Shown here piece by piece: positions 5,437-19,462 of a DNA stretch of 64,000 nt. The stretch comes from Sporosalibacterium faouarense (GTDB lineage Bacteria; Bacillota; Clostridia; Tissierellales; VENL01), in NCBI RefSeq assembly GCF_016765695.1, contig NZ_JAETGO010000045.1, positions 1-64,000 on the forward strand, given 5' to 3'. The position numbers and the translations under genes were made by a program. Position 1 is the first letter of the stretch; every line of letters starts with the position of its first letter. The notes below the pieces were generated by a model. It had not been told where the DNA came from. It did no database searches and saw only the letters and a program-made list of their open reading frames with translations.

Positions 5437-6087
5437 CTATTTTTTATTGATAGCTTGAGCTATCTTATTTCCAGATGATTGAATCACCTGAACTAAAATC
5501 ACTAAAATTAAAACAGTAATAAGCATTAAATTTGTTTGAAATCTATGATAGCCATATCGAACAGCTAAATCGCCTAAACCACCTCCTCCTACTACTCCAG
5601 CCATGGCCGAGTAACCAAGAATGTTGATAATAGTTATAGTTACACCTAATACTAGTGAAGACATTGCTTCAGGAATTAATGCCTTCAGAATAATCTGTAA
5701 GGGGCTAGCTCCCATAGCGATAGATGCCTCTATTACTCCCCAGTCAACTTCATTAATAGAACTCTCTACTATACGGGCAAAGAACGGGGTAGCTGCAAAT
5801 ACTAAAGGAACAATAGCAGCAGTGGTTCCAATGGTAGTTCCAACTAGAAATCTCGTAAATGGAATAATGAAAACCATAAGAATCACAAAGGGTAAAGATC
5901 GTGTAATATTGATGAAATAAGATAGAATAAAGTTAATAACTCTATTTGGAAGAATATGTCCTTTTTCTGTGACAACTAGAGTAATTCCAAGAGGTAAGCC
6001 TAAAAGTATTGTAAATGCTAAAGAAATAAAGACCATGTATAGAGTCTCTATGGCAGATGGAATAATAAGTGCAATGATATCATTCAT
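5437..6087 (-). CDS. metI: MetI, methionine ABC transporter permease
   Basis: A 216-residue permease with about five membrane segments. The cytoplasmic EAA loop that contacts the ATPase is visible as EASIAMGASPLQIILKALIP, near residues 119-138, and the AMAGVVGGGGLGDLA stretch is typical of MetI. Its start overlaps the end of metN by eight bases (6080-6087), which suggests translational coupling; metQ follows after 12 bases. Confidence 0.93.
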   Translation of the reverse strand: MNDIIALIIPSAIETLYMVFISLAFTILLGLPLGITLVVTEKGHILPNRVINFILSYFINITRSLPFVILMVFIIPFTRFLVGTTIGTTAAIVPLVFAATPFFARIVESSINEVDWGVIEASIAMGASPLQIILKALIPEAMSSLVLGVTITIINILGYSAMAGVVGGGGLGDLAVRYGYHRFQTNLMLITVLILVILVQVIQSSGNKIAQAINKK

Positions 6088-7075
6088 AATTTAAAACCTC
6101 CATTTTTACGTTATTTTCTTTAAGAAAAGTCTGTATCAAGTGCAAAGTGGACATATCTGTCTTAATCTGTACGATTAATTTTCCAATAGGCTTATCTTGA
6201 ATCCATTCAATTTTGCCAGATAGTATATTTATATCTACTTCAAACTCCCTTATTATTTTAGAAATCAATGGCTTGCCTGCACTGTTATGGGTGAAGGACA
6301 AACTAAATATTCTATCTTTATCTAAGGATGTAGGAAGAACTCTTAACTGATCAACAAAGTCTTGGGTAGCCTTTTGTCTTGGTGTAGAAAAAACATCTAT
6401 TGTGTTACCAGCCTCTAAAATTTGACCATTTTCTAATATAGCTACATGTGTACATATCTCCTTGACTACATCCATTTCATGGGTTATTAATATGATAGTA
6501 ATTCCAAAGGTCTTATTTATCCTTTTTAATAGGTCCAGTATTTGTTTAGTGGTCTTAGGGTCTAAAGCTGAGGTGGCTTCATCACATAGCAATACATTTG
6601 GATTAGAAACCAAGGCCCTAGCTATTCCCACTCTTTGTTTCTGTCCCCCACTTAATTGAGAAGGATAAGAGTTAGCTTTATCAGTAAGGTCTACCAGCTC
6701 TAATAGCTCGTTAACTCTTTTAGAAATTTCAGTTTTAGGAACTTTGGATAACTTCAATGGAAAAGCTATATTATCAAATACTGTCTTGCTACTAAGCAAA
6801 TTAAAACCTTGAAAAATCATTCCGATATTTTTTCTAAGATTTCGTAATCTTTTGGTAGAAAGGTTTGAAACGTTGACATTACTAATCAAAATATTTCCTG
6901 TAGTAGGTTCTTCAATTCTATTAATACATCTGATTAATGAGGATTTACCTGCTCCACTTAGACCAATAATTCCAAAGATTGAACCTTGTTCAATGAATAA
7001 ATTAATATTATCAAGGGCAACAACTTTATTATCTTCTTTAGAATAGACCTTAGAAAGATTTTCAATTTTTATCAT
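6080..7075 (-). CDS. metN: MetN, methionine ABC transporter ATPase
   Basis: A 331-residue ATPase that drives methionine import. Walker A is GLSGAGKSS, the signature is LSGGQKQR, Walker B is NVLLCDEATSALD, and the H-loop is LITHEMD. The C-terminal part (about 260-331) is the NIL/ACT-like domain found in MetN, which senses internal methionine in studied homologues. ATG 7075 is chosen because AAGGAG lies seven to nine bases upstream and MIKIENLSKVY is the usual beginning; the longer frame to 7147 runs into the leader. First gene of the operon, about 100 bases downstream of an S-box terminator. Confidence 0.95.
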   Translation of the reverse strand: MIKIENLSKVYSKEDNKVVALDNINLFIEQGSIFGIIGLSGAGKSSLIRCINRIEEPTTGNILISNVNVSNLSTKRLRNLRKNIGMIFQGFNLLSSKTVFDNIAFPLKLSKVPKTEISKRVNELLELVDLTDKANSYPSQLSGGQKQRVGIARALVSNPNVLLCDEATSALDPKTTKQILDLLKRINKTFGITIILITHEMDVVKEICTHVAILENGQILEAGNTIDVFSTPRQKATQDFVDQLRVLPTSLDKDRIFSLSFTHNSAGKPLISKIIREFEVDINILSGKIEWIQDKPIGKLIVQIKTDMSTLHLIQTFLKENNVKMEVLNYE

Positions 7076-15085: not shown

Positions 15086-15404
15086 CATAAGGACAAGCAT
15101 AAAGATGAATTTAGATTTATCATATTAGAATTATATTCTGAATAGATATAAAAGCAGTATTATAAATTACTTTAAAAAAATTGTTCTAAAATACAATGAT
15201 TGACATTTTACGACAAAGGAATTGTATATAATAGATATTGAATGTATTGATTATAAGTTAGAATTGATAAAATATATTTTAAATATAATAAAAATCAAGA
15301 ATAATTGGAACAATTTAGAGAAAATATAAGTCTAATAAGTTATATGGAGAGTAACTATTATTCTGCTAACATAATATACTTTTGAACATATGGGGTTGAT
15401 AAAT
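15086..15404. other. AT-rich intergenic region
   Basis: About 320 bases between the symporter hairpin and the next gene. I see no coding sequence. A TTGACA at about 15202 with TATAAT-like bases some 20 bases later may be the promoter of the 15405 gene; an ACGACAAA near-match to a Spo0A box lies between them. Confidence 0.4.
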
Positions 15405-15989
15405 ATGGTTTATAAACTATTTACGTCACTTAATATTACAGATTGTGAAAAAAAGCTCAGAGATACAATAAAAGAGAATATGTTGCCCTCAAGTGCTGAT
15501 AGAATAAAATGCTTTGGTAAGCTAGATATTAAAAAAAGAAATTTTTGGATAATGAATAAATTTAGAAAAAATAATTGTGATAAGAGAAAGTATAATTTAC
15601 CATCACTAGGGAAATTTGTTGGGGAGTTACATCCTAGTGAAGATGGAACTAAGATTGTAGGTCAATTTGAATCGTTTAGAATTTCAAAGGTATTTTTAGG
15701 CATTTGGTATATGGCTATTATATTTTCTTTAACTCTATGTATATATAGAGGGGTACTAGATTTTGTAGTAAATGATAATATTAATACATCTTTAATTAAA
15801 ATTTGTTTAGCTATTATTACCCTTTGTATAATAGGTTGGATCGTATTTAAATTAAGTATAAGTAGAAGAAAAAAGGTTGAAGAGCATACTATGGAATTTT
15901 TAATAAATCTATTACAAGTTGATGAAATAGAAACAGAATTGGAAGAGAATATTGTTGCTTTTTCAAGTCTCAATGAAGGATTAGAATAA
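15405..15989 (+). CDS. Membrane protein of unknown function
   Basis: A 194-residue protein with a basic N-terminal half (lysine-rich around residues 35-60), then two membrane segments in the C-terminal half (about 95-115 and 128-148) and an acidic tail. I recognise no family. ATG 15405 is preferred over the in-frame ATG 15390 because a weak GGGG lies before it, while 15390 has none; the choice is not firm. Monocistronic. Confidence 0.6.
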   Translation: MVYKLFTSLNITDCEKKLRDTIKENMLPSSADRIKCFGKLDIKKRNFWIMNKFRKNNCDKRKYNLPSLGKFVGELHPSEDGTKIVGQFESFRISKVFLGIWYMAIIFSLTLCIYRGVLDFVVNDNINTSLIKICLAIITLCIIGWIVFKLSISRRKKVEEHTMEFLINLLQVDEIETELEENIVAFSSLNEGLE

Positions 15990-16285: not shown

Positions 16286-16385
16286 TAAGATTAACAAAAA
16301 AGTTGAAATTTTCAGATAACAAGAGTATAATGTATGCAAGTTTATAATTATATAGATATTTATAGAATTATGTATTGTAAAACAG

Positions 16386-16414
16386 TTTACATGCCTATAG
16401 GTATATGATATAAT
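16386..16414 (+). promoter_or_regulatory. Promoter of the RRNPP-type regulator, with palindromic spacer
   Basis: TTTACA (16386-16391) and a perfect TATAAT (16409-16414) are 17 bases apart, 27 bases before the gene start. The spacer holds an imperfect palindrome around CCTATAGG, a plausible site for autoregulation. Confidence 0.7.
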
Positions 16415-16440
16415 TAAATTAATTAAAAGAAGGTGGTTAA

Positions 16441-17763
16441 ATGAAAGAAAGAACAAATATGACCCTGGGAGAAAACCTTAAAAGTATAAGGAAAGAATTA
16501 GGGTTACGACAACATGAGATTGTAGGAGATGAAATAACAAGAAATCTTATTAGTATGATAGAAAATAATAAAACACCTCTTTACTATAGAACTGCTAAGC
16601 TAATAGCAGATAATATTAATAGGATTTCAAAAGAGAGGAATCTAGATATACATATCGACCCTGAAGATATTATGGATCCTCGAAGAATTGAAGCTAAGAA
16701 ACAAGCCGATAGATATATTGAAAAACTTCAGAGTTATATAAGAAATAATCACTATGAAGTTGAAGAATATTATATTAGAGAAATTGAGGCTTTCTTAAAA
16801 AAGTGGAATATTTCTGATAAGAAGGTTGTTATTTATGAGCTTTTAGGTAAGATAAGCTATCATTATAATGATTTACAAAGACAGTATAACTATCTTACAA
16901 GAGGATTAGAAAATTATTTTGTTAATCCAATAAAAAAAGATATACATAAACTTGTAATGAGTTTAATTGGCAACTGTATTTTTACTGGTAGATATAGAGA
17001 AGCAATAAATCTAAGTAATTTAGATTGTATGAGCGCTGATAGACTATCTGATGAACTTAAGGTAAAGTTAAACTTTAATGTTGCTTTGGCATATAAGAAT
17101 CTTGAGAGATATGATAAGGCATTATATTATCTACAAGAATTAAAGAAATATATTGGAAGTAATAATTCAGAAGGACTTAGGAAATCACTAATTTTAGAAG
17201 GAATTTGCTATAATGAAAAAGGACAAGAAGATAAAGCTATTGAAATATATTTAAAGGCCATTCAAATATTAGATGATGAAGACAAAGAAAAAGCAGTTGT
17301 ATATGCTAATATTTTAGATATATATGTTTCTCAGAAGGATAAAGAAAGGGCTGAAGAATATAGGAATAAATTAGTAAGTCTATTGCCTATATTTGAATCT
17401 GCTAATGAGTATATATCAAATATATATTATAATTTAGCTGAAGCCAGTGAATTATTGGGGCAAAATGATTTAGCAGAGGAGTATTATAAAAAGTCGATAA
17501 TAAAAGCAGTGGAATTTAATAAAATTGATTATGCTATTAAAGGACAACTTACACTACTAGATTTATATTCAAGAACTAATTCAGAAGATAAAATAGTTTC
17601 AAATAAAGAGATTTTCACCAAGGTTTTTGAACATATGAATGTTTCTGGAAGTTTGGAATTAATTCTTAGGCTTACTCTTGCTTGTATTGAAAGGGGAGAC
17701 AAGGATGAGGCTAAGAACTTAATAAACCAAATATTAAAGGGGGGGCATGAGAATGAAAATTAA
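16441..17763 (+). CDS. HTH-TPR transcription regulator of the RRNPP (peptide-sensing) type
   Basis: A 440-residue protein with an N-terminal XRE-type helix-turn-helix (about residues 7-65; LGENLKSIRKELGLRQHEI) followed by a long all-helical region of TPR repeats (about 90-435), for instance NVALAYKNLERYDKALYYL and YYNLAEASELLGQNDLAEEYY. This arrangement is that of RRNPP regulators (PlcR, NprR, PrgX, AimR), where the TPR part binds a re-imported secreted peptide. AAGGTGG precedes the ATG. Its last 11 bases overlap the start of a small secreted-peptide gene, the usual genetic arrangement of regulator and cognate signal. The ligand assignment is inference. Confidence 0.85.
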   Translation: MKERTNMTLGENLKSIRKELGLRQHEIVGDEITRNLISMIENNKTPLYYRTAKLIADNINRISKERNLDIHIDPEDIMDPRRIEAKKQADRYIEKLQSYIRNNHYEVEEYYIREIEAFLKKWNISDKKVVIYELLGKISYHYNDLQRQYNYLTRGLENYFVNPIKKDIHKLVMSLIGNCIFTGRYREAINLSNLDCMSADRLSDELKVKLNFNVALAYKNLERYDKALYYLQELKKYIGSNNSEGLRKSLILEGICYNEKGQEDKAIEIYLKAIQILDDEDKEKAVVYANILDIYVSQKDKERAEEYRNKLVSLLPIFESANEYISNIYYNLAEASELLGQNDLAEEYYKKSIIKAVEFNKIDYAIKGQLTLLDLYSRTNSEDKIVSNKEIFTKVFEHMNVSGSLELILRLTLACIERGDKDEAKNLINQILKGGHENEN

Positions 17764-17893
17764 AAGACTAATTTTATCTCTATTATTAATTGCATCTTTA
17801 ACATTAAGCACTATGAGTTTTGTAGCGGCAGAGCAAATTGACCCAACACCAATGACGTGTGAAAGTATTAAGATACCACTAGAGATTAAATAG
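17753..17893 (+). CDS. Phr-like secreted signalling-peptide precursor, 46 residues
   Basis: A short gene overlapping the end of the regulator gene. The product begins with a basic MKIKR, a hydrophobic core of about 18 residues and a signal peptidase site at SFVAA-EQ. A polar tail of about 20 residues ends in TCESIKIPLEIK. This is the shape of Phr/NprX/AimP pro-peptides, which are exported, trimmed and re-imported by an oligopeptide permease. A run of seven G lies eight bases before ATG 17753; an in-frame ATG at 17747 is too close to it. A very strong terminator follows. No sequence similarity to a named peptide is claimed; the call rests on size, signal and position. Confidence 0.72.
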   Translation: MKIKRLILSLLLIASLTLSTMSFVAAEQIDPTPMTCESIKIPLEIK

Positions 17894-17942
17894 GTTACAT
17901 AAGGAAAAGAATGAACGCAAGATATAAACGGAAAAAATTGTT

Positions 17943-17988
17943 AAGCATATAAGGTGTAGTATACTACACCTTATATGCTTTTTTGTGT
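17943..17988 (+). terminator. Strong intrinsic terminator after the peptide gene
   Basis: A perfect 38-base palindrome (17943-17980) runs directly into TTTTTTGTG, 50 bases after the peptide stop codon. Confidence 0.92.
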
Positions 17989-18091
17989 TATAATAGATGG
18001 GTCAGCATCATAATTTCATCACAATTTATTGCTAAAATAATATAGGTTAGAGTTTCACCTTTATATGATACTAAATGAAGGGAGAGGACGA

Positions 18092-19462
18092 ATGAAGAAA
18101 AAGAACTATTTGAATTTCAGTAAAAAGAAAATGCTAGCAGGGACTTTGTCCATAATTATGATTATAACTATTCTTGGAGCTTTATACATAAATGCGCAAG
18201 CATATGAAGTTAAGGTTAATAATAAAGTGATTGGATTGACAAAGGATAAAGATAGCATAGACCAGGTTATGAGCTCTATGAAAGCATCATATAAGGAGCA
18301 ATATAATAAGGAAGTTGAGTTCTCACAAGATGTCTCTTTTAATAAGGTTATGGCATTTGGAGAAAAAACTGAATCTTCCACAGAAATTATGAGTGAGATT
18401 GAAAAAAATATAGATGTTGAAGTGGAAGCTTATGCAATAACTGTAAATGATGAGGATTTAGCCATTGTATCCGATGAAAAGATAGCCGAGAAAATATTGG
18501 ATGAACATAAGCAAACATATGTAGAACAACTTCAAGATGAAAGTGATATAGATATAAAAGAAATTGGTTTTGTAGAGAATGTTGAAATACAAAAAAAATA
18601 TGTTGATCCTGATTCGATAATAGATGAAGAAGAAACCTATAATTTAATAACTACAGGAACAAAAGAAATAAAAAAGTATAAAGTTCAAAAGGGTGAAACG
18701 GCAACTCATGTGGCAGTTAAGTATCATATTTACTTAGATGATTTAAGAAAGGCTAATCCAGGTGTTAATTTAGAATTGCTTCAAATTGGACAGACTCTCA
18801 ATGTTTCTGTGCCAAAGCCACTAATTAGCGTGAAAATTGTAGAAGGATTAGAATATGAAGAAGCTATACCTTTTGAAGTGGAATATGAGGATGAAGATAA
18901 CTTATATATAGGAGATAGGAAAACTAAGGTTCAAGGTGTAAATGGAGAAAAAGAGGTTAAAGCAGAAGCTATTATGATTAATGGAATAGAAGAAGAAAGA
19001 AAGATTGTTGATGAAAAGGTTGTTAAAGAACCAAAAACAAGCGTTGTTTTAGTAGGGACAACTCCAAGACCAAAGACTTTAGCCTATGGTGAATTTAGGG
19101 ATCCTACCAGAGGTTTAGGTAGAATTTCTTCACCATTTGGAAGTAGGTGGGGAAGTACTCATACAGGTGTAGACATTGCAAATCCCATAGGTACTACTAT
19201 TACTGCTGCAGATGGCGGAAAAGTAGTATTTGCAGGTGTTATGGGGACATATGGAAAACTTGTTATTATAGATCACGAAAATGGATATCAAACATACTAT
19301 GCCCATTGTAGTGCATTTCTAGTTAAGAAGGGCGAGAGAGTATATCGAGGTGAAGCAATAGCAAGAGTAGGGAATACTGGAAGATCCACAGGACCTCATG
19401 TGCATTTTGAAGTGAGGAAAAATGGAACTCCCGTCAATCCTTTAAGCTATATAAATAGATAA
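18092..19462 (+). CDS. Secreted M23 endopeptidase with LysM and G5 domains
   Basis: A 456-residue cell-wall hydrolase. A basic N-terminus and hydrophobic segment (about 12-35) form a signal or membrane anchor. A LysM peptidoglycan-binding domain (KYKVQKGETATHVAVKYHI, about 198-245), a G5 domain (about 248-330) and the zinc peptidase domain (about 345-456) follow. Zinc and catalytic residues show as HTGVDI and HVHFEV, plus YYAHCS. It cuts peptide cross-links in the wall. ATG 18092 follows AGGGAGAGG; the in-frame ATG at 18065 would put that site inside the protein. A family member of this build often acts in sporulation or daughter-cell separation; which applies here is not visible. Confidence 0.9.
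   Translation: MKKKNYLNFSKKKMLAGTLSIIMIITILGALYINAQAYEVKVNNKVIGLTKDKDSIDQVMSSMKASYKEQYNKEVEFSQDVSFNKVMAFGEKTESSTEIMSEIEKNIDVEVEAYAITVNDEDLAIVSDEKIAEKILDEHKQTYVEQLQDESDIDIKEIGFVENVEIQKKYVDPDSIIDEEETYNLITTGTKEIKKYKVQKGETATHVAVKYHIYLDDLRKANPGVNLELLQIGQTLNVSVPKPLISVKIVEGLEYEEAIPFEVEYEDEDNLYIGDRKTKVQGVNGEKEVKAEAIMINGIEEERKIVDEKVVKEPKTSVVLVGTTPRPKTLAYGEFRDPTRGLGRISSPFGSRWGSTHTGVDIANPIGTTITAADGGKVVFAGVMGTYGKLVIIDHENGYQTYYAHCSAFLVKKGERVYRGEAIARVGNTGRSTGPHVHFEVRKNGTPVNPLSYINR

Follow-up and report, generated by a model that had tools for sequence, protein, structure and literature searches.

The stretch of DNA analysed here (the window, 64,000 nucleotides, part of contig C58 of the 4.12-Mb genome of Sporosalibacterium faouarense) carries two overlapping genes that very probably form a self-contained quorum-sensing operon of the RRNPP type, with a circuit that would run in positive feedback. 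The reading as an RRNPP receptor with its propeptide—proposed in a preliminary description for a Clostridia-type anaerobe—is well supported by the linkage of the two genes across the receptor family, by profile matches to NprR and Rap, and by the fold of the receptor model. Systems of this kind are already known. The pair belongs to a branch in Tissierellales that is still largely uncharacterised and stands closest to Qsr/Qsp and NprR, and the informative additions are P-x-P signals, repeated precursors, and an operator.

The promoter of the pair (16386–16414, + strand, score 11/12) consists of the −35 hexamer TTTACA starting at 16386, a 17-nt spacer, and the extended −10 TGATATAAT ending at 16414. 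The receptor gene (16441–17763, +) encodes a regulator of 440 aa with an XRE-type HTH and a TPR superhelix, as judged by ORF, Pfam, profile, and model. Pfam places the HTH DNA-binding domain at residues 10–69 (16468–16647, +; HTH_19, E 7.3e-8, above the family cut-off) and finds TPR_12 (4.5e-14) and further TPR families. RRNPP receptors are expected to measure 250–500 aa, to contain a TPR domain and, in all but Rap, to begin with an HTH; the window receptor features all three. The receptor gene overlaps the propeptide gene (17753–17893, +) by exactly 11 bases (17753–17763). The latter encodes the 46-aa MKIKRLILSLLLIASLTLSTMSFVAAEQIDPTPMTCESIKIPLEIK and has equivalents in the family. Its Shine–Dalgarno sequence AAAGGGGGGG (17736–17745, +) lies within the receptor gene and ends 7 nt before the ATG; an alternative in-frame ATG at 17747 would make the propeptide two residues longer. 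N-terminal positive charge, a hydrophobic core, and V-A-A preceding the cut point to a signal peptide (17753–17830, +) with probable cleavage at FVAA|EQ. As judged by this hydropathy and charge, the propeptide falls into the class of exported RRNPP precursors of 10–100 aa encoded next to the receptor. A Pfam search with the 46-aa propeptide matched no family. Downstream lies a perfect palindromic, bidirectional terminator (17943–17980), a 19+19-nt inverted repeat (17943–17961/17962–17980) with T runs on either strand and a folding energy of −25 kcal/mol (z −6.5). The preliminary description had named a 440-residue HTH–TPR protein, an overlapping 46-codon gene with a ribosome site, a signal-peptide cut near SFVAA-EQ, and a perfect palindromic terminator, and all four stand.

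The receptor is related to known RRNPP receptors. A profile of 39 receptor sequences finds NprR (6e-17), RapH (1e-13), Rap105 (9e-11), and also Rap-pLS20 in the PDB; engineered and eukaryotic TPR proteins match this profile equally well or better. The AlphaFold2 model of the receptor (pLDDT 89, pTM 0.79) superposes on NprR (5dbk, Z 21.7), RapI (Z 21.8), and the TPR protein LGN (Z 23.3). Because this generic TPR protein superposes as well as NprR and Rap, the fold alone does not discriminate. All 39 receptors have N290, and 38 of them retain N213. In RNPP receptors, a strictly conserved Asn holds the peptide backbone, Asn227 in the case of RapF (PMC3601957). N213, a possible counterpart, lies within a [YF]N-x-x-L motif resembling Y226-N227 of RapF, but the profile registers against different Raps disagree. 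At two conserved sites, the window receptor differs from its family: it has K137 where 36/39 receptors have Asp, and S174 where 37/39 have Lys.

An order-level search gave matches in 62 of 249 genomes (the family level comprises three genomes in the collection) and several dozen near-full-length receptor homologues of roughly 25–41% identity. Relatives known by name are Tissierella simiarum, Schnuerera, [Clostridium] ultunense, Thermohalobacter berrensis, Maledivibacter, Caloranaerobacter, Thermotalea, and some Clostridium species. A first scan of genome contigs with the single receptor protein as query returned no matches. Fifty-two receptors, the window receptor included, score above 250 bits on the family profile, and 43 of them have an SD-preceded exported small ORF beside the stop codon, compared with 2 of 167 other genes from the same loci. 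The scan ran from 30 nt before to 130 nt after the receptor stop and accepted ORFs of 28–130 aa with SD, charged start, and hydrophobic core. The small ORF accompanies 27/28 receptors scoring at least 500 bits (the window receptor being one of them), 9/11 at 400–500, and 7/13 at 250–400 bits; below 250 bits, it is rare. Under these strict criteria, nine of the 52 receptors lack the ORF: L032, L035, and L050 have it further off or with a weaker SD, and two further ones are truncated T. simiarum copies (the first gene of L039, and L040). Distant Clostridium-type homologues are mostly without it, which is consistent with the orphan RRNPP regulators without peptide described for Clostridium (PMC7376267). 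The presence of a small secreted gene beside homologues had been put forward as a check on the pair, and its lack as counterevidence: close homologues have the gene, and those without it are mostly distant and of the orphan type.

Two separate observations stand beside this linkage. The genome of T. simiarum contains six receptor paralogues (L012, L037, L038, L039, and L040), four with differing P-rich signals and two truncated without a working peptide gene. At L005 (G002), on the complement strand (38–986 on that strand), a 315-aa weakly TPR-like protein is followed by a 46-aa exported ORF, MKKLFKSLACISLVFILSVSIVSATDGDDSGGVCSAGHIIEEIIIK—perhaps a further signalling pair.

The 48 collected propeptides feature a common block a short way behind the signal peptide, in forms such as VPPEPIRDSI, DPEPWS, PDPERI, GPTRP, and VQNPEPM. 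P-x-P is present in 38/48 tails (tail shuffles: mean 15.6, maximum 25) and PIR[DE] in 13 of 48 (0.17 in shuffles), both patterns having been picked after inspection of the sequences. Around ten precursors bear 2–8 copies of the block, such as VQNPEPM and FGHTPDPVMP, each twice, in T. simiarum propeptides, GEINPEPIR three times (L017), and GPDPIRAE six times (L010). The T. berrensis precursor (L025 from 2809, + strand; also L079) has 117 aa and carries VVPEP(W/R)S eight times, in eight near-identical 12-residue units, AAVVPEPWSVDV. Such tandem repetition singles the block out as the unit that functions. For known RRNPP subfamilies, surveys in the literature count as many as six pheromone copies (PMC9765709), and processing has been demonstrated for two duplicated propeptides of the Phr kind (PMC11343458). 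The signal type, assigned by eye, tracks the receptor tree: it changes 11 times, whereas 300 shuffles of the labels average 22.6 changes and never fall below 19, though related sequences inherit signal type and receptor together.

In the window propeptide, (Q)IDPTPM lies directly behind the presumed FVAA|EQ cut and 12 residues short of the C-terminus. Since the conserved and repeated block sits just behind the signal-peptidase site, comparison with the P-x-P block of the 48 propeptides predicts the mature signal QIDPTPM, or IDPTPM/EQIDPTPM (17834–17854, +). The signal is thus probably (Q)IDPTPM, with approximate termini, rather than the C-terminal tail TCESIKIPLEIK favoured in the preliminary description. 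A signal at the C-terminal end of the propeptide (KIPLEIK-type) would follow the rule among known RRNPP propeptides (PMC9765709), and one repeat copy indeed stands at the C-terminus in L037, L017, L036, and L018. It is nevertheless improbable here: comparison of the C-terminal residues across relatives, as proposed earlier, reveals that the sequence beyond the P-x-P block varies, with conservation and repetition confined to the block itself, and the active AEPTWGW of Clostridium acetobutylicum QspB is described as likewise internal (PMC7376267). Less probable still is that the small ORF encodes a short, toxin-like membrane peptide next to an orphan regulator or antitoxin of the HTH–TPR type. 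In favour are the small size and hydrophobicity of the product and the existence of RRNPP-like orphans that lack a peptide, both as described for Clostridium (PMC7376267) and among the distant homologues found here. Yet what is conserved and tandemly duplicated is the polar tail behind the signal peptide rather than the hydrophobic segment. With an internal and repeated signal as the preferred reading, naming the last propeptide residues as the pheromone would probably pick the wrong molecule in this family.

Comparison of homologous upstream regions yielded an operator, GTAAA-N4-TTTAC, present in the window as GTAAAACAGTTTAC (16377–16390, 10/10 match) and overlapping the −35 hexamer; in most promoters, its TTTAC half forms bases 1–5 of the −35. 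It is found at 10/10 in 21 of 48 homologous promoters and at 9/10 in 9, compared with 0.1% and 4.5% of order-1 shuffles; with the window and related species among them, these promoters are only partly independent, and the counting followed on a consensus already noticed in the same sequences. The 4.12-Mb genome holds three perfect sites, that of the window included, and the combination of perfect operator, N18, and TATAAT occurs genome-wide in the window promoter only. Another palindrome, CCTATAGG in the promoter spacer (16390–16407), was rejected as operator: homologues do not conserve it, and at one mismatch the genome contains 24 copies of it compared with 16 of the reversed control. GTAAA-N4-TTTAC was adopted instead. 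A conserved operator on its own promoter implies autoregulation of the receptor. As the operator covers the −35, the simplest reading is repression of its own operon, which the peptide would relieve or strengthen; the repressor sign is deduced from the position of the site alone.

The second perfect site of the genome (C47:90334) lies between two divergent genes (G000:C47, L156), one for an exported protein of 209 aa (5627–6256, −) and one for a hydrophobic membrane-type protein of 116 aa (6400–6750, +). On the minus strand, the operator lies over TTTACA, and TGATACCAT follows at the customary spacing, a layout as in the receptor promoter. The receptor might instead be a peptide-dependent activator of a target elsewhere, its own-promoter operator being secondary. 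Such activators switched on by peptide are NprR and PlcR, and for the + strand gene, the C47 site precedes the −35, at about −50 relative to the predicted start, a usual place for an activator. This remains a possible but doubtful reading: in the receptor promoters, the operator covers the −35 itself, and it does likewise on the minus strand of C47, both of which favour repression.

The exported protein of C47 features a glycine/hydrophobic stretch and has no significant family match, geobacillin-26 appearing only at E 2.5. A homologue in G005 (L177, 37% identity) is also divergent to a small membrane-type protein; the membrane-type proteins of G005 and C47 give no significant alignment with each other. 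Given the lack of a family match and of alignment between the membrane partners, a bacteriocin/immunity role of the C47 pair as a candidate receptor target is only a guess, and with two other perfect sites in the genome, one could be intergenic by chance. The third perfect site (C83, L115) was discarded as a target because it has no promoter layout and apparently lies within a coding region. The genes adjacent to the window pair (15390–15989 and 18065–19462) have no operator at up to one mismatch.

A regulon common to all relatives was likewise discarded: the sites precede differing genes—for a GntR regulator, a LytTR-like regulator, and hpt—with no shared target. In [Clostridium] ultunense-like genomes (L151–L154), the receptor operator is common to a divergent GntR/FCD-type gene with its own −10. 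In three of these, the leader of the GntR gene contains a hairpin-like repeat, TGTACCAGG...CCTGGTACA, which had no match in Rfam at the gathering threshold. GTAAA-N4-TTTAC also stands before a gene for an hpt-like phosphoribosyltransferase in two congeneric species (L148 and L136; G158 and G159), and a perfect operator with TATGATATTAT is located upstream of a gene for a 117-aa LytTR-like regulator (L120, G160:C20:128583).

The preliminary description had taken such systems to be few in Clostridia, which understates their number: eight RRNPP-type systems are described in C. acetobutylicum (PMC7376267) and five in C. saccharoperbutylacetonicum (PMC7206700), and RRNPP_detector (Bernard et al. 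2023) gave 21 novel candidate subfamilies, with Tissierellaceae and Peptoniphilaceae mentioned (PMC10075063). Qsr-Qsp (QssA-H) of C. acetobutylicum and QssR-QssP of C. saccharoperbutylacetonicum are described as an HTH–TPR receptor followed by an exported precursor of 39–50 aa (PMC7376267, PMC7206700), as in the window. Shared with Qsr-Qsp are further the Clostridia hosts and a short proline-containing signal, the active and internal AEPTWGW of QspB (PMC7376267). Compared by description, the Qsp motif is P...W, whereas here P-x-P precedes IR, W, M, ER, or others. Of the Leu, Pro, and Trp typical of Qsp signals, PW occurs in part of the wider family, and the window signal has no Trp. As far as the accounts in PMC7376267 and PMC7206700 extend, no operator is reported for these systems, in contrast to GTAAA-N4-TTTAC here. 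NprR-NprX of the Bacillus cereus group resembles the window pair in its HTH, its many TPRs, and the order of receptor and propeptide. NprR is the best natural RRNPP profile match in the PDB, and its subfamily is known for multi-copy propeptides (PMC9765709), as found here; it differs by its signal and by an identity of about 12% over the structural alignment. Rap-Phr of Bacillus and its phages likewise combines a TPR receptor, matched by the profile in RapH and Rap105, with a downstream exported propeptide, and duplicated pheromones are processed from one propeptide (PMC11343458). However, Rap proteins lack the HTH and have response regulators as binding partners, and Phr signals are penta/hexapeptides, usually C-terminal and without P-x-P. 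The candidate subfamilies of RRNPP_detector were predicted by the same gene order as in the window, with the C-terminus as the usual signal, unlike the P-x-P block here, and the receptor family may already be among them (PMC10075063). A phage origin of the arbitrium kind was rejected, as no phage homologue emerged and the neighbouring genes examined include none of prophage type; a search of a plasmid collection gave distant matches only, for example, Clostridioides difficile RstA at 2e-6.

The gene anatomy, the family linkage, the conserved signal block, the conserved operator, and the relationship to NprR and Rap are observations, around which the following mechanism can be proposed. Regulator and propeptide would be co-transcribed from the one promoter, with translation of the propeptide probably coupled to that of the regulator. 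The propeptide would leave the cell by way of Sec and be cut after VAA; trimming outside the cell would then yield a short signal with P-x-P, (Q)IDPTPM being the likeliest form. An oligopeptide permease would re-import the signal; the genome encodes eight binding proteins of the SBP_bac_5 oligopeptide permease type, a possible route. The peptide may then dock in the concave groove that the receptor's TPRs form; the receptor, as an HTH dimer, would occupy GTAAA-N4-TTTAC over the −35 of its own promoter, most simply as a repressor, and release of this repressor by the peptide would result in positive feedback. It can tentatively be suggested, at less than even chances, that a Tissierellales-wide branch uses P-x-P pheromones placed behind the signal peptide in one to eight copies and has receptors that close their own promoters through GTAAA-N4-TTTAC, with the same switch set here on a bacteriocin-like/immunity-like pair. 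A receptor, a predicted signal, and a DNA target, each of them testable, are now available side by side for an order of anaerobes that has received little study, and the operator provides a handle for finding the genes that these systems control.
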